DNA of 34,769 nucleotides from an uncultured Erysipelotrichaceae bacterium (lineage in GTDB: Bacteria; Bacillota_I; Bacilli_A; Erysipelotrichales; Erysipelotrichaceae). This document shows, one piece after another, positions 25,998 to 32,774 of the stretch. The position numbers were made by a program, and so were the translations under genes. The first letter of the stretch is position 1. The number at the start of each line of letters is the position of its first letter. The notes under the pieces were generated by a model. That model had not been told where the DNA came from and made no database searches. It worked only from the letters and a program-made list of their open reading frames with translations. The stretch is from positions 1-34,769 of the forward strand of contig CALVGQ010000064.1 of NCBI GenBank assembly GCA_944327135.1. Direction: 5' to 3'.

Positions 25998-26089
25998 AAT
26001 GATTGAAAACGGTCAAATAAATGATTGAAAACAATCTAATATTTGATTGTTTATTTAAAATAATCAAAATATATTGACTGATTCAATCA
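25998..26089. promoter_or_regulatory. Operator array before the second sugar operon
   Basis: The 13-base repeat AATGATTGAAAAC occurs at 25998-26010 and 26020-26032, exactly 22 bases (two helix turns) apart. An inverted repeat AAACAATC/GATTGTTT follows (26029-26036, 26045-26052), and a palindrome TGATT-C-AATCA (26079-26089) lies inside the promoter. The half-site TGATT recurs throughout. The DeoR protein encoded at the operon end is the likely ligand; DeoR proteins bind such spaced repeats. Confidence 0.6.
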
Positions 26090-26102
26090 AAATGATTATA
26101 TT
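26074..26102 (+). promoter_or_regulatory. Promoter of the second sugar operon
   Basis: TTGACT (26074-26079) and TATATT (26097-26102) with a 17-base spacer, 44 bases before the pfkB-type gene, with operator half-sites inside. Confidence 0.7.
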
Positions 26103-26146: not shown

Positions 26147-27094
26147 ATGATTGTAACCCATACTTCCAATCCTTCAATCGACTACTTTCTGGAATTGCCG
26201 CATGATCTGGCTCCGGGGATCCAGCGGGCCAGTCAGGGCTATCTTTTACCAGGGGGCAAAGGGCTGAATGTCTCGATGATCCTGAATCAGCTGGAAATTC
26301 CTTCGATAGCGACGGCTTTTTTGGGAGGCTTCTCAGGAGAGTATATCAGCCAGACGATGACGAACTATCCGTGGATCACGCTGCAGTCAATCAAGATCGA
26401 GGAAGCCAATCGGATCAATGTCAAGATCCGTGGGACCTGTGAGACCGATATCAATGCTCCAGGCCCATTGATCAGTCCGCTTGCTCAGCAGCAGATGCTG
26501 AAAGAACTGGCTAGGCTGCTGCATGCTAAAGATTGGTTGCTGATTTCCGGAAGCCTGTCCCGCTGTGTCCAGGAAGATTTTCTTTTAAAGGCGGCACAGT
26601 TGGTTCATCGTGTTTCTGCGCGGCTGGTGCTGGATGTCCCGGGAATCAAAGCTTCGCTGATCGCTCGTTTGAAGCCAACGCTGATCAAGCCCAATGTGGA
26701 AGAACTCAACGCAATGTTTGGACGGCTTGGAACGGTGGATGAACAGGTCAGTCAATTGCTGGACGCCGGAGTGGAGCAGATCCTGCTGTCCAATGGCAGC
26801 CAAGGAGCATTCTTTTATACACGGACAAAACGATACCGGATCGAACATCCCTGTTTGAAGGCTATTAGTACGGTTGGTTCAGGAGACAGCATGCTGGCGG
26901 CCTTTGTGGGGATGCTGGAGCAGGGACGCACGATCGAAGAAGCACTGGTCTGGGCGGCAGCGGCGGGTGAGGCAACAGCGATTTCGAAAGGACTGGCAGA
27001 TCGCGCCAAGATCGAAGCATTGAAGGAAAACGTCAGGATTATTCAAGAAGAAGCAAGGAGAGAACAAGATGAAGATAACGATGGCACGAATTGA
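26147..27094 (+). CDS. PfkB-family sugar phosphate kinase (1-phosphofructokinase-like)
   Basis: A 315-residue kinase of the PfkB family, subgroup FruK/LacC. The first signature PGGKGLNVS is at 35-43. The second, STVGSGDS, at 241-248 includes the catalytic D247. LIKPNVEEL (179-187) is also typical. It should phosphorylate fructose-1-phosphate, tagatose-6-phosphate or a similar sugar phosphate made by the PTS that follows. The start at 26147 follows GGGAGG with 10-base spacing; an upstream in-frame codon at 26129 is ruled out by position of this site. It overlaps the EIIB gene by 26 bases. Confidence 0.87.
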   Translation: MIVTHTSNPSIDYFLELPHDLAPGIQRASQGYLLPGGKGLNVSMILNQLEIPSIATAFLGGFSGEYISQTMTNYPWITLQSIKIEEANRINVKIRGTCETDINAPGPLISPLAQQQMLKELARLLHAKDWLLISGSLSRCVQEDFLLKAAQLVHRVSARLVLDVPGIKASLIARLKPTLIKPNVEELNAMFGRLGTVDEQVSQLLDAGVEQILLSNGSQGAFFYTRTKRYRIEHPCLKAISTVGSGDSMLAAFVGMLEQGRTIEEALVWAAAAGEATAISKGLADRAKIEALKENVRIIQEEARREQDEDNDGTN

Positions 27095-27545
27095 CAATCG
27101 CTTGCTGCATGGCATTGTGATTGCTCAGTATCTTCCGCGATCCAATTGTCAACGTATCATGGTCATTGATGATGAGGTGGCATTGGATCCAAAGAAAAAA
27201 GAGATGATGATGTTTGCCAAACCCAATGGCTATGCTGCCAGCATCATTCCGCTGCAGAAAGCAGTAGAAAATTTTAAGGCAAACAAATATGAAGGTCAGC
27301 GAATTTTCATTCTGGCAAAAACTCCGCATGTTTTTTTGGAATTGGTCAAGGCCGGAGTGAAGATCCCGGAATTGATGATCGGAGCAACGGATCGCCTTAA
27401 TGAGGGAATCAAGCTGAGCAACCGGGCGTTTATTAGCGAAGAAGAAGCGGAAGAATATCGCCAGCTGAGGAAACTGGGCGTTGCGATCATCGTGCAGCAT
27501 GCGCCATCGGTCACACCGGTGGATCTGTTCAAAATCATTCATTAA
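27069..27545 (+). CDS. PTS mannose/fructose/sorbose family EIIB
   Basis: A 158-residue phosphocarrier. The motif ARIDNRLLHGIVIAQYLP puts the phosphorylated histidine at residue 14. It starts behind AAGGAGAG within the end of the kinase gene. It receives phosphate from the EIIA of the same operon and gives it to the sugar in the EIIC/EIID channel. It differs clearly from the EIIB at 8237-8737, so the two systems are not a recent duplication. Confidence 0.92.
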   Translation: MKITMARIDNRLLHGIVIAQYLPRSNCQRIMVIDDEVALDPKKKEMMMFAKPNGYAASIIPLQKAVENFKANKYEGQRIFILAKTPHVFLELVKAGVKIPELMIGATDRLNEGIKLSNRAFISEEEAEEYRQLRKLGVAIIVQHAPSVTPVDLFKIIH

Positions 27546-27560
27546 GGAAGGGGAAAATAT

Positions 27561-28349
27561 ATGTTTGGTTTAACCGCAATACAACTGTTTCTTATTATTC
27601 TTTTGACCGAGCTGATCGCTTTGGACAGCGGCGGTCCGCAGACGCAGGTCATTTCTAAGCCCTTGGTGGTTGGAACCTTGATCGGAATGGTGTTGGGGGA
27701 TACCGCGCAAGGAATGTTTATTGGCGCGACCTTACAGCTGATGTCGATGGGAGTGGTCGGTCTGGGTGGTGCCAGCGTTCCAAACTATGTCATCACCACG
27801 ATTATCACAGTCATTGTGGCGATCCAGTCAGGACAGGGCTATGAGATCGGATTGACGATCGGGCTGCCAGTGGGAATGCTTTATGTCAATCTGGATATTT
27901 TGCATAAGATCTTAAATGGCTATGTCATGCGCTGGTCGCAAAAGCTGGCTAATGAAAAGAAATTTAAGGAAAGCATCAGCGTGCTCTATCTGCATTTGGT
28001 CCTGATGTCCCTGAAGTTCTTGCTTCCAGTGCTAATCGTACTTCTGGCTGGACAGGCAGTGACTCAGACGATTGTCGATGCGATGCCGGCTTGGCTGTTT
28101 AATGGAATGACCGTTGCTGGAAAGATCTTACCAGTAACTGGTATGGCAATGCTGCTGAATTATATGCCGGTTGAAAAGAATTTCCTGTATTTGTGCATCG
28201 GCTTTGTAATGTACGCATATATGGGAGTGGGCACCTTAGGCGTCGCCATCATTGGCTTTGGTCTTGCCTTTAAGTATTATTATGATCAGACGCATCAAGT
28301 CGCTGCAGCATCAGCAGCAGGAAATGCAGGAGGGTTAGAAGATGAATAA
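27561..28349 (+). CDS. PTS mannose/fructose/sorbose family EIIC
   Basis: A 262-residue polytopic membrane protein of the PTS EII-C sorbose family. Signs are FLIILLTELIALDSGGPQTQVISKPLVVGTLIGMVLGDTAQGMFIGATLQLMSMGVV at the N-terminus and GKILPVTGMAMLLNYMP later. It starts behind GGAAGGGG. The stop overlaps the EIID start by 8 bases, so these channel subunits are coupled. Confidence 0.92.
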   Translation: MFGLTAIQLFLIILLTELIALDSGGPQTQVISKPLVVGTLIGMVLGDTAQGMFIGATLQLMSMGVVGLGGASVPNYVITTIITVIVAIQSGQGYEIGLTIGLPVGMLYVNLDILHKILNGYVMRWSQKLANEKKFKESISVLYLHLVLMSLKFLLPVLIVLLAGQAVTQTIVDAMPAWLFNGMTVAGKILPVTGMAMLLNYMPVEKNFLYLCIGFVMYAYMGVGTLGVAIIGFGLAFKYYYDQTHQVAAASAAGNAGGLEDE

Positions 28350-29139
28350 GGTCTTAACAAAACAGGATGTCAATCGTGCTGGTTTACGCTGGATGGTCAT
28401 GCCGATGTCTTCATTCTGCTATGAAGCGCAGTTTGGTCAGGCCGTGGTTTATGCCCTGGCGCCGGCTTTGCGTAAGCTTTATCCGGATGATGACGATTAT
28501 CTGGCCGCCATCAACAATCATTTTAAATACTTCAATACCCAGCCCTATATGTGTCAGATCGTTTTAGGAGCGGCCCTAGGAATGGAAGAACAGCTAGGCC
28601 GGGCTGGTGCTGAAACGATCCAGGATTTTAAGACCGGAGTCATGGGCCCGCTGGCGGGAATCGGTGATACGCTGTTCTGGGTCGTCATTCCGACAATCTG
28701 GGCGTCGATTGCTTCGCCGATGGCTTTGGAAGGCAATGCGACCGGATTGATCCTGTGGACGCTGTTTGGTATTGCGCTGACGTTGTTCCGTCTAAAATTC
28801 TTTGAATGGGGATACAATCTTGGAACTCGGCTAATTACCGAATTGAAATCGACGCTGCAGGTGTTGACCGATGCGTGCTCGATCCTTGGTTTAACGGTCG
28901 TTGGTGCTTTGATTCCTTCGGTGGTTTCCGTTCAGGTTCCATTGACCCTTAATTTTGCGACAGGGACTTCCATGTCGATTCAGGAACAGCTGGACAAGAT
29001 CATGCCTTGTCTGGTTCCGGTTTTGCTGACGCTGATCTGCTACAAACTGCTGGGCAAGAAAAAGGTCAGCATGACCTGGCTGGTTCTGGTTGTTTTGATT
29101 ATCAGCATCCTTGGTTCGGCCTTGGGAATTCTTGGCTAA
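28342..29139 (+). CDS. PTS mannose/fructose/sorbose family EIID
   Basis: A 265-residue EIID subunit. Family marks are LRWMVMPMSSFCYEAQFGQAVVYALAPALRKLY, FFNTQPYM-like FKYFNTQPYMCQIVLGAALGMEEQ, and VMGPLAGIGDTLFWVVIPTIW. Hydrophobic helices fill the C-terminal half. It starts behind GGAGGG. It is separated from EIIA by a hairpin at 29148-29169. Confidence 0.92.
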   Translation: MNKVLTKQDVNRAGLRWMVMPMSSFCYEAQFGQAVVYALAPALRKLYPDDDDYLAAINNHFKYFNTQPYMCQIVLGAALGMEEQLGRAGAETIQDFKTGVMGPLAGIGDTLFWVVIPTIWASIASPMALEGNATGLILWTLFGIALTLFRLKFFEWGYNLGTRLITELKSTLQVLTDACSILGLTVVGALIPSVVSVQVPLTLNFATGTSMSIQEQLDKIMPCLVPVLLTLICYKLLGKKKVSMTWLVLVVLIISILGSALGILG

Positions 29140-29147
29140 AATAGAAA

Positions 29148-29169
29148 GCTGCAGCTTGCTTGCTGCAGC
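29148..29169 (+). promoter_or_regulatory. Intercistronic hairpin between EIID and EIIA
   Basis: GCTGCAGC (29148-29155) and GCTGCAGC (29162-29169) are self-complementary arms around TTGCTT. Only scattered T follow, so it is more likely an RNA processing or partial-termination element than a full terminator. Confidence 0.5.
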
Positions 29170-29194
29170 CTTCTTTACAAAAGAAAGGAAGAGA

Positions 29195-29608
29195 ATGAAA
29201 AAGATCGTTTTTTGCAGTCATGGAAGGCTGTGTGAAGGAATGCTGGATACTTTGAAGGTCTTTTCCTTGTATGAGGAAAAGAGGATGGAGGCAATTCCTT
29301 TTTACACTGAAGGAATCGATGCTGAAGCCCGTTTAAATGCATATAAGGAAAGACTTCAGGCAGAAGATCAGCTGCTGATATTTACAGATGTGGCTTTTGG
29401 CAGTGTCAATCAGTGGGTCATGGCCGCGTTTCAGGATTTTTCTAACGTTTTTATTGTAACGGGAATGAATTTAATGATCGTTCTGGAATTGCTTTCGTTG
29501 GATGGAGCATGGACGGAAGCAGCCGTGAGCGCGAAAGTAGAAGAAGCGCAGGCTTCGATCCAGTTTACTCGAAAGATGAGTTTTTCTTTGAGCGAGGAAG
29601 ATGAATAG
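29195..29608 (+). CDS. PTS mannose/fructose family EIIA
   Basis: A 137-residue EIIA-man type domain: KKIVFCSHGRLCEGMLDTLKVF has the phosphorylated histidine at residue 9, and LLIFTDVAFGSVNQW matches the LFxDLxGGSPxN motif. The start at 29195 follows AAAGGAAG; the open frame reaches back to 29111 through the hairpin. It is the only EIIA in the window and could in principle also serve the first PTS system, which lacks one. Confidence 0.87.
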   Translation: MKKIVFCSHGRLCEGMLDTLKVFSLYEEKRMEAIPFYTEGIDAEARLNAYKERLQAEDQLLIFTDVAFGSVNQWVMAAFQDFSNVFIVTGMNLMIVLELLSLDGAWTEAAVSAKVEEAQASIQFTRKMSFSLSEEDE

Positions 29609-29619
29609 GGAGGATATTG

Positions 29620-30858
29620 ATGAAAATAGCAATACGACAATGTGATCTTACTCCTTCCCGGCCTTGCTGGCAGGGAGGATATGTTCAGCGCACGAATTTT
29701 TATGAGAAGGTCCATGATCCGATCACTGCGACCCTCTTCGTTTTGACCTTTGAAAAAACCAAGATGGTCTTTGGAAGCTTGGATGTCAGTGGGGTCGATC
29801 AGGCACTGACAGATCTGATTTTAGAGCGCACCGCGAAAAAAGGGGTAAAATTGGACCCTCAAGAGCTTTTATTAAGTGCGACCCATACGCACAGTGGCCC
29901 GCTGGTTGGGGCCTATTATGATCGAAAGATCGATCCGGATTATTACGAAAAGGTGATCGAAACAATTAGTACAGCCATTGTTGAGGCATATCAGCAAGAA
30001 GGCGAAGAATGTCAGCTGTACTATCGCAATACATGGATCGATGGCCTGTATTCGAACCGCAATGATCCCAACAAGCTTTCAGATAAATGGATCCATCAGT
30101 TCGGTTTTTTTCAAGATGGAAAGCTGCTGGCCATGATTACTTCACTAGCCCATCATTGTACGGTCTTAGGTCCTAATTTCACGGATCTGAGTGCTGATTT
30201 ATTTGGCGAGATGCGCCGTCTTTTGCAGCAGGAGGTTCAGGCTCCGGTGATGATGGTGCAGGGCAATGCCGGGGATATGGGCAACAAACAGTACCGCCGC
30301 AGCAATTTGTTTGACGAGGTCGAGCGGCAGGCCGCTGCACTGGTGGATCAGATCCGAAAAAAACATAGTGCATGGCAGCTTTTGAAATGCGACCATTGCA
30401 CGATTCGTACCGTTGCCTATCAGGCGGTATATGATGTGAATGCAGAAGACTATGTAGCAAAAAAACAGGAATTCGAGGAACAATTGAAGACCGAAACCAA
30501 TTTCGATACAATCAAGCTGCTGGTAACGGGAATCCGCAGTTTTGAACGAAAGATCGAACAAGGATCCCGTCATGTAGAACGGACGATGGAGGCGCGGATC
30601 TATGATCTGGAAGAATTGCAGATCGTGGCGGTACCGGGAGAGCTGGGCTCGATCCTTGGCTTGCGAATCAAGGCGGCATCGGCGGCCAAGGTATGCTTTT
30701 TATGGGGCTATGCGAATCCGACCAACCTTGGTTATATGATCGAAAAAGAAGCTTATGAGGGCTTTTCTCAGGAAAGCAACGTTACGGATTATCCCGCCGG
30801 GATCCCGGATGAATATGCTGCGGCCATAATGGATGCGCTGCAGCAGCCGCATGAATAA
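29620..30858 (+). CDS. Ceramidase-fold protein (neutral ceramidase-like), cytoplasmic
   Basis: A 412-residue protein of the neutral/alkaline ceramidase-like family without signal peptide. The metal motif SATHTHSGP has histidines H89 and H91; SLAHHCTVLG has H178/H179, in place of the next zinc histidine. MVQGNAGDMGN (212-222) aligns with the QSNxGD motif of ceramidases, but the serine nucleophile is replaced by G215. So true ceramide hydrolysis is doubtful. The start at 29620 follows GGGAGG. In a sugar PTS operon with a metallo-hydrolase it may hydrolyse an amide or ester of an imported sugar phosphate; this is a guess. Confidence 0.72.
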   Translation: MKIAIRQCDLTPSRPCWQGGYVQRTNFYEKVHDPITATLFVLTFEKTKMVFGSLDVSGVDQALTDLILERTAKKGVKLDPQELLLSATHTHSGPLVGAYYDRKIDPDYYEKVIETISTAIVEAYQQEGEECQLYYRNTWIDGLYSNRNDPNKLSDKWIHQFGFFQDGKLLAMITSLAHHCTVLGPNFTDLSADLFGEMRRLLQQEVQAPVMMVQGNAGDMGNKQYRRSNLFDEVERQAAALVDQIRKKHSAWQLLKCDHCTIRTVAYQAVYDVNAEDYVAKKQEFEEQLKTETNFDTIKLLVTGIRSFERKIEQGSRHVERTMEARIYDLEELQIVAVPGELGSILGLRIKAASAAKVCFLWGYANPTNLGYMIEKEAYEGFSQESNVTDYPAGIPDEYAAAIMDALQQPHE

Positions 30859-31831
30859 CACAGCGAGCCGTCCGATTCGATCAGAGCTGAAATCGTATCG
30901 GATCAAGGAGGCTACAGAAAAACCATCACGCTGGAATTTTATGAAGATTTTACGGGAATTCAGCACGTTAAAAGAATTTTATCCGGAAATCGATCCGTAT
31001 GCAGAGGTTTATCGCTTTCGGAAAAATCTGTATGCGATCTTTAGCCTGGGGCTGACCACTGGCTGCGCGGATACCTGGAATTATTTGATTTTAGGTCCTA
31101 AAAAAGCGATGCTGATCGATACTGGATGCGGTGCGGGGAATTTGCGTGGCTTGTGTGAAAAGCTGGCTGAGGGAAAAGAGATCCTTTGTGTTAATACGCA
31201 TTATCATTTGGATCATTCTGGTGGGAATGCAGCGTTTGATGCGGTTTATATCCATGCGTACGATGTGCCGCATTTACAAGAAACCAGAAAAAAGGGCTTT
31301 GTTGATTATTTTGATGAACATGGAAACCCTAAGGAAACCTATTTTGATCCGGCTGATTTAGTGAAACCCAAAGAGTATAAAATCATTCCCTTTGAAGATG
31401 GCGATTTTTTTGATCTGGGAGAGGGATACCGGGTCGAGGCAAAGCATCTTTCCGGGCATACTCCTGGACAAAGCGCCTTTTATGATCATCAGAATCACTG
31501 TCTTTTTATCGGTGATAATACCAGCTGTTTTGGACCGCAGCCCAAGGAAGCCCATCCAGAATGCTGCACGGTGCGTTCTTTACGGGATGGTTTGCAGAGC
31601 TTGCTGCCGCTTTTGGATGAGGTCGACGGTGTTTTTGCCGGTCATGGGACCATCGATCAGCATCCGCTGGTGATTCAGTATATCCTGGATGCGGCAAATC
31701 GGATCCTGGCCCATCCTGACTGGGCAGACGATCAGGTCAGCTTTGGCGGTCGTAAAATGCTGGCAAAGATGATCTATCAGCAGGGCAGTGATTTAAAATA
31801 CACGCCTGACAGCGTCGGATCAAGGGAATAA
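30851..31831 (+). CDS. Metallo-beta-lactamase-fold hydrolase
   Basis: A hydrolase of the metallo-beta-lactamase superfamily with a full two-metal site: THYHLDHSGG (HxHxDH), LSGHTPGQS (histidine), IGDNTS (aspartate) and AGHGT (last histidine). It has no signal peptide. The start is uncertain. ATG 30851 overlaps the stop of the previous gene (ATGAATAA) and would be coupled. ATG 30941 (MKILREFS, 296 residues) fits the family better but has no site at a normal distance; an AAGGAGG lies 29 bases upstream. Lactonase, thioesterase or phosphodiester activity are all possible. Confidence 0.82.
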   Translation: MNNTASRPIRSELKSYRIKEATEKPSRWNFMKILREFSTLKEFYPEIDPYAEVYRFRKNLYAIFSLGLTTGCADTWNYLILGPKKAMLIDTGCGAGNLRGLCEKLAEGKEILCVNTHYHLDHSGGNAAFDAVYIHAYDVPHLQETRKKGFVDYFDEHGNPKETYFDPADLVKPKEYKIIPFEDGDFFDLGEGYRVEAKHLSGHTPGQSAFYDHQNHCLFIGDNTSCFGPQPKEAHPECCTVRSLRDGLQSLLPLLDEVDGVFAGHGTIDQHPLVIQYILDAANRILAHPDWADDQVSFGGRKMLAKMIYQQGSDLKYTPDSVGSRE

Positions 31832-31841
31832 AACCGCCAAC

Positions 31842-31868
31842 AGAGCCCTTTTTGAGGGCTCTTTTTTT
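31842..31868 (+). terminator. Terminator of the second sugar operon
   Basis: AGAGCCCT (31842-31849) pairs with AGGGCTCT (31855-31862) around TTTTG and ends in a T run. The deoR gene that follows is therefore mostly expressed separately. Confidence 0.85.
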
Positions 31869-32036: not shown

Positions 32037-32774
32037 ATGAAAAACAAGCGGTGGAGCAGCATTCTTGAGCTGTGTGAGAATCAGGGAGCAGTAACGGTAG
32101 AACAGCTGACTGCAGTTTTGCAGGTCTCTGAAGCTACCGTTCGCCGGGATTTGCAGAAGATGGAGGACAACGGACTGATTTTCCGGTTTCATGGCGGAGC
32201 TCGGCTGATTGACAATGAACTGAAGGAAAAATCGATGACGATGAAATCGCTGCTGAATATAGAGGAAAAAGAAAAGATCTCACGGTATGGGGCTTCGTTG
32301 ATCCAGGATGGACAGATCGTGTTTTTGGATGCCGGGACAACAACGTATAATCTGATTGATTATATTGAAGCGCGGGAGATTACCGTGGTTACGACTGGAA
32401 TTCCTCATCTGACCAAATTATCACAGCGCAACATCAAGACGTTCGCCCTGAGCGGGTTTGTCAAATCGAGCACGGTGGCGGTGACGGGAAAGGAAACCGT
32501 CAATCAGCTAAGCAATATGAATTTTGATATTGCTTTATTAGGGACCAATGGCGTTCATCCGGCTGCCGGCTTTACCACCCCGGAAGAATATGAGGGAGAA
32601 GCCAAAGCAATGGCCATGCGGCGGGCTAAGAAATCGTATATTTTAGCGGATAAAAGTAAATTCAACAAGCTTTGTTTCGTACATTTTGCTGATCTTCAGG
32701 ATGCAACGGTGATCATCGATGCCAAAATTGAAGATTTTGATTATCAGCTGATTGACTATATCGTTGCCCCATGA
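32037..32774 (+). CDS. DeoR/GlpR family transcriptional regulator
   Basis: A 245-residue repressor. The N-terminal HTH reads VTVEQLTAVLQVSEATVRRDLQKMEDNGLIFRFHGGARL. The C-terminal DeoRC sensor has VFLDAGTTTYNLIDYI, ITVVTTGIPHLTKL and the ADKSKF motif that contacts a sugar phosphate. It starts behind GAGGATGAGG. Placed after the PTS/kinase operon, it likely controls the operator array at 25998-26089 in response to a phosphorylated sugar. No strong own promoter is seen in the 168 bases upstream. Confidence 0.88.
   Translation: MKNKRWSSILELCENQGAVTVEQLTAVLQVSEATVRRDLQKMEDNGLIFRFHGGARLIDNELKEKSMTMKSLLNIEEKEKISRYGASLIQDGQIVFLDAGTTTYNLIDYIEAREITVVTTGIPHLTKLSQRNIKTFALSGFVKSSTVAVTGKETVNQLSNMNFDIALLGTNGVHPAAGFTTPEEYEGEAKAMAMRRAKKSYILADKSKFNKLCFVHFADLQDATVIIDAKIEDFDYQLIDYIVAP

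Follow-up and report, generated by a model that had tools for sequence, protein, structure and literature searches.

The plus strand of the window (i.e., the whole stretch of DNA analysed, 34,769 nt in length) harbors, at positions 26147-31831, a PTS operon with the gene order pfkB, IIB, IIC, IID, IIA, CER, MBL; hereafter, CER stands for the ceramidase-fold protein encoded at 29620-30858 and MBL for the MBL-fold hydrolase encoded at 30851-31831. The preliminary description of this DNA had placed a ceramidase-fold protein and a metallo-hydrolase inside a sugar PTS operon, and this layout is borne out by the Pfam matches of the genes together with a single promoter upstream and a terminator-like hairpin after the MBL gene (both consensus matches). 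The features are as follows:

25998..26102, + strand: candidate promoter/operator carrying inverted repeats along with a direct repeat of 22 nt (AATGATTGAAAAC...)
26074-26102, + strand: sigma-70-like promoter (-35 TTGACT, 17 nt, -10 TATATT; consensus match only)
26147..27094, + strand: PfkB-family hexose kinase, 1-PFK/tagatose-6-P kinase subfamily (PF00294, 116.6 bits; TIGR03168, 251.5 bits)
27069..27545, + strand: PTS IIB, sorbose/mannose family (PF03830, 132.6 bits; motif RLLHG)
27561..28349, + strand: PTS IIC, sorbose/mannose family (PF03609, 204.4 bits)
28342..29139, + strand: PTS IID, mannose family (PF03613, 279.6 bits)
29195..29608, + strand: PTS IIA, mannose family (PF03610, 35.1 bits; motif SHGRL)
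29620..30858, + strand: cytoplasmic ceramidase-fold protein CER, predicted zinc hydrolase, 412 aa (PF04734, 2zws profile match, fold model)
30851..31831, + strand: MBL-fold two-metal hydrolase, 326 aa (PF00753, homologue-aligned start, metal motifs, fold model)
31842..31862, + strand: intrinsic-terminator-like hairpin 3' of MBL, operon end (consensus match only)
32037..32774, + strand: DeoR-family regulator, separate gene (PF00455/PF08220)

The PTS encoded in the window is complete (IIA, IIB, IIC, and IID), and the phospho-His motifs of IIA and IIB were both found. The PfkB-family kinase passes the TIGR03168 cut-off (251.5 vs. 216.4) and fails that of the 1-phosphofructokinase equivalog (252 vs. 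292). Members of the TIGR03168 subfamily act on ketohexose phosphates, so the passing of the former cut-off suggests a ketose-type end product. Upstream of the operon, the sigma-70-like promoter is accompanied by nested repeats TGATTGAAAAC/TGATTGTTT; promoter-like matches are no commoner in the window than in shuffled sequence, hence it is the position and the quality of the match only that speak for the promoter at 26074-26102. The upstream repeats may plausibly constitute an operator for a DeoR-type protein, since the operon of Holdemania massiliensis (L046) features two TTGATTGT repeats with likewise 22-nt spacing. The CER start at 29620 is preceded by GGGAGG. The gap between IID and IIA contains a perfect 8-bp hairpin (29148-29169, GCTGCAGC...GCTGCAGC) without a strong T run, possibly a site of mRNA processing or attenuation.

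With 35.1 bits, the match of CER to PF04734 exceeds the gathering score of 32.1. Pfam scores of single proteins are weak (27-42 bits), and the single-sequence match to the human enzyme is modest (4wgk, E 0.0034); NCBIfam contains no model for this protein. The profile and fold matches, however, are not weak. The profile built from 53 CER relatives retrieved 2zws with E 5.8e-29 and 4wgk with E 9.8e-26. The AlphaFold2 model of CER (pLDDT 95.8, pTM 0.93) superimposed on 2zws with Z 38.6, 380 residues being aligned to residues 5-490 of the latter, and on 4wgk with Z 35.4, whereas unrelated structures scored Z 6.7 or less. According to the model, CER therefore possesses the fold of the catalytic domain of neutral ceramidases, at an identity of only ~19%, and it comprises this domain only: the match stops at residue 490 of the 646-residue 2zws chain, and neither the profile nor the fold alignment to 2zws includes a C-terminal Ig-like domain. 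Neither a signal peptide nor a hydrophobic N-terminus is present in the CER sequence, and the protein is predicted to be cytoplasmic, so its initial designation as a cytoplasmic neutral-ceramidase-like protein holds.

In the profile alignment with 2zws, residues H89, H179, E341, and Y372 of CER coincide with H97, H204, E411, and Y448 of the Pseudomonas aeruginosa chain, which are reportedly the zinc ligands of that ceramidase (Inoue 2009). The His, His, Glu, Tyr set characteristic of the family is complete in CER, where H91 is kept too, and the four positions are conserved in 52/53, 52/53, 51/53, and 53/53 members, respectively; H91, R147, T181, and Y372 are invariant across the 53-member alignment. 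In the vicinity of the Ser/Gly loop discussed below, basic residues (K or R) occupy positions 223 and 226 in 53/53 members, including those without a PTS; judging from their placement, K/R223 and R226 could hold the phosphate of a substrate.

It had been noticed at the outset that the active-site serine of ceramidases appears to be replaced in CER, by G215. The substitution is real, but the position was misassigned: the serine position corresponds to G221, and the glycine at 215 is another one, shared by 51/53 members. The GDVSPN-type active-site Ser of functional neutral ceramidase is not present in CER; across the family, this position harbors Ser in 39/53 members and Gly in 14/53. Ten of the 14 Gly members, including the CER of the window, form a single clade (support 100/100), and the distribution of the two residues takes at least three changes on the CER tree. 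In neutral ceramidases, the role of the nucleophile belongs to zinc-bound water. As stated in a paper citing the structure of human NCDase, its catalytic site is Zn-dependent (PMC6303388); given this and the retention of all Zn ligands in CER, the label of "nucleophile" for the serine appears doubtful. Likewise, Gly at position 221 does not imply inactivity, because the enzyme class is zinc-dependent. The view of CER as a catalytically dead remnant, to which the Ser-to-Gly replacement might lead, is hardly credible, given that the metal ligands persist across an alignment of 53 divergent proteins and that the Gly clade itself retains both the zinc ligands and the operon context.

The same replacement can be read in another way: CER could bind zinc without being a hydrolase and act as an isomerase, an epimerase, or a phospho-sugar sensor built on the ceramidase scaffold. 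Such a role would be in line with conservation limited to the ligand set and a few other residues, and with the lack of an obvious isomerase gene among the Pfam-annotated ORFs of the operon. Still, the full ligand set and the invariant residues surrounding it are hydrolase-like, and the serine is kept in most of the family, which makes a non-hydrolytic CER rather unlikely.

CER relatives were detected in 59/195 Erysipelotrichaceae genomes, with up to six matches per genome, and in 23/392 genomes of a phylum-wide draw, 18 of these 23 belonging to Erysipelotrichaceae; the closest named relatives are Holdemania. The 2.05-Mb genome from which the window originates contains five ceramidase-like matches in all, and in its second PTS operon (L060:6844-11353), two ceramidase-like genes are situated around a PRD/Mga-type activator cluster gene. 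Tandem ceramidase-like genes also occur in other genomes (L088:7033-9813, L099:4865-6693).

The neighborhood analysis, advised in the preliminary description, was carried out on 60 stretches fetched around CER and MBL homologues, their ORFs being labelled by the operon proteins of the window, and it revealed that the PTS link recurs far beyond the strain of the window. At 34/52 CER-cluster loci, same-strand mannose-family IIC and IID genes were found no more than seven genes away, vs. ~6% expected from the density of IID genes (4.5 per Mb in 32 genomes); this count is possibly an underestimate, since the crude ORF caller always favored the longest ORF and overlooked genes in one locus or more (L051, mended by tblastn). 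No IIC/IID genes were called near the remaining 18/52 loci, some of which lie on short contigs; others adjoin M20 peptidases, an ABC transporter, or housekeeping genes, so not all CER relatives serve a PTS. The orthologous operons retain pfkB, IIB, IIC, IID, IIA, and CER, with an identity of 60-73% for CER and 79-92% for IIC/IID, and in the distant operons L056 and L059 PfkB is swapped for another P-loop kinase. Two distant CER genes (L104:6480-11065 and L107:6582-11309) have, in place of the mannose-family PTS, a PTS gene of the EIIABC type and a GH1 gene resembling those of phospho-glycosidases (phospho-glucosidases) as neighbors. This setting ties CER to PTS-delivered sugars more generally and, as far as gene content goes, suggests its wider role with PTS-imported glycosides. 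Partners of the YdjC, IMPase, and SIS_2 types, which do not belong to the operon of the window, were recorded near distant CER members and hint at amino-sugar or sugar-phosphate chemistry. Four loci (L068, L070, L082, and L083) gather ceramidase-like, MBL, mannose-family PTS, and YdjC-type (deacetylase-like) genes in one neighborhood, possibly an amino-sugar oligosaccharide system.

With this context at hand, one can consider that CER acts as a genuine ceramidase or lipid amidase, cytoplasmic by chance, its link to the PTS being a matter of co-regulation in the use of host glycolipids. The neutral ceramidases are indeed the only solved relatives of CER, which retains their zinc ligands. This possibility is nevertheless very unlikely in view of the lack of both a signal peptide and a C-terminal Ig-like domain, the low identity to ceramidases, the charged residues at 223 (K/R) and 226 (R) close to the loop of the serine, and the placement of the gene between PTS IIA and MBL/HAD/DeoR genes.

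As for the second hydrolase, MBL matches PF00753 with 61.4 bits, its model (pLDDT 92.5) reaches Z 21.8 to MBLs, and its two-metal site of the HxHxDH...H...D...H type is whole (HYHLDH, SGH, IGD, AGHG), in accord with its early characterization as a complete two-metal hydrolase. MBL falls short of the cut-offs of the NCBIfam class B beta-lactamase models, scoring 37.1 vs. 100 (bla_class_B_core) and 27.8 vs. 200 (subclass B1). Since the homologues begin with M...RPIKSDLKS in the alignment, the most likely start of MBL is 30851; consequently, MBL and CER share 8 nt at the CER stop, inside the last CER codons (ATGAATAA).

The proposed coupling of CER and MBL proved to be valid in part. MBL homologues are enriched near CER genes: at 9/30 MBL loci, a CER gene is no more than 10 kb away, vs. 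0.9 expected under uniform placement (p 9e-7 without the window). In 4/195 genomes, a CER of the window clade occurs together with MBL, against an expectation of 0.36 (p 1e-4; 1.3e-3 when the window's own genome is left out), in a test that treats genomes as independent, with counts compiled by hand. Both tests ignore phylogeny. As a directly adjoining pair, however, MBL 3' of CER is confined to the window, L049, and L050, the PTS of the latter two being more divergent (down to 44-50% in L050). Elsewhere, CER is followed by a HAD-IIB phosphatase gene (L045/L051, L053, L054) or directly by deoR (L046/L052), deoR being the next gene after CER or HAD in the orthologous operons L051-L054. Overall, of the eight closest orthologous loci inspected (window, L045, L046, L049, L050, L053, L054, and L058), five lack MBL, and three of these five have the HAD phosphatase instead. 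The gene after CER varies while CER is constant; hence the conserved part is CER and not the CER-MBL pair, and MBL is an optional accessory. On the MBL tree, the proteins of the window and L049 are joined (100/99), whereas that of L050 is grouped with an unlinked MBL; the pairing must therefore have been formed or lost on several occasions. Locus L049:127-4579, from a MAG labelled Oscillospiraceae, encodes the closest MBL (71%) and a 60%-identical CER in the same order as in the window, a result of either horizontal transfer or mis-binning. At the MBL-only loci, no clear clue to the substrate was obtained, the neighbors being mostly housekeeping genes or a PTS with DUF34 and tyrosine-phosphatase-like genes. 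The absence of MBL from most of the closest loci could also mean that it is functionally unrelated to CER and adjoins it by chance or operon drift; the proximity, the co-occurrence, and the 8-nt gene overlap argue against this, and we consider such independence somewhat unlikely.

Taken together, these findings are best accommodated by CER being a putative zinc amidase/esterase acting on a PTS-delivered phospho-sugar ahead of the PfkB kinase, a reading to which we assign a probability of roughly 55%. The mannose-family PTS would import and phosphorylate a modified, probably ketose-type, sugar. After the import and before the kinase step, as we infer, the Zn-bound water of CER would serve to hydrolyze a C(=O)-N/O bond (amide, ester, or lactone-like) in the phosphorylated sugar, and the PfkB kinase would then make a bisphosphate for glycolysis. 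MBL, sited where the relatives have a HAD phosphatase, may serve as an optional second hydrolase for the side chain, a lactone, or a by-product. A putative deacylation or lactone hydrolysis of the imported sugar phosphate, as suggested initially, is plausible. The broader proposal remains tentative, with the odds slightly against it: a new type of sugar-catabolic pathway, in which a CER-fold zinc enzyme deacylates or ring-opens a phospho-sugar imported by the mannose-family PTS, the lineage-expanded family of Erysipelotrichaceae providing paralogues for different PTS substrates.

The recurrence of CER beside the mannose-family PTS in many Erysipelotrichaceae suggests an undescribed step in the use of modified sugars. 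Since CER-type proteins match the Pfam ceramidase family, they could be interpreted as gut-microbial sphingolipid enzymes, while their context points to sugar use. If the proposed role is true, this annotation would be corrected and the ceramidase fold would gain a second chemistry; a class of modified sugars used by Erysipelotrichaceae would be indicated, with the list of paralogues and operons ready for finding that sugar. In the open-access literature, no paper on PTS-linked ceramidase-like proteins was found, and none of the PF04734 papers concerns PTS as far as their titles and abstracts tell. Thus, as far as found, a known fold occurs here in a recurrent operon setting undescribed in that literature.

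The known systems include mannose-family PTS operons that also encode a hexose kinase (the Lev, Sor, and Gfr types). The operon of the window resembles them in combining IIA-IIB-IIC-IID with sugar-phosphate enzymes and differs in the addition of the ceramidase-fold and MBL hydrolases. The initial statement that neither of the two hydrolases belongs to a known sugar pathway was too strong for MBL. A precedent for MBL enzymes in PTS regulons is UlaG, the MBL-fold L-ascorbate-6-phosphate lactonase of the ula PTS regulon with its DeoR-type regulator (PMC3219644). The MBL of the window is likewise an MBL-fold hydrolase beside a PTS and a DeoR-type regulator, but the PTS belongs to a different family. 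UlaG does not appear among the PDB sequence or fold matches listed for this MBL. Its best sequence matches are glyoxalase II-like/lactonase-like MBL-fold hydrolases (2xf4, 2zo4), with which it shares the HxHxDH-H-D-H site; unlike them, it is extended at the N-terminus by a segment (RPIKSDLKS...RW) that is conserved among its own family members. Finally, CER shares with the neutral ceramidases (P. aeruginosa 2zws, human ASAH2 4wgk) the catalytic-domain fold, the positions of zinc ligands, and the HTHSGP motif. Functional neutral ceramidases are secreted or membrane-anchored and end with the Ig-like domain, whereas CER is a putatively cytoplasmic protein of 412 aa lacking this domain, encoded in a PTS operon and featuring Gly at the serine position, followed by K/R-x-x-R after the loop.
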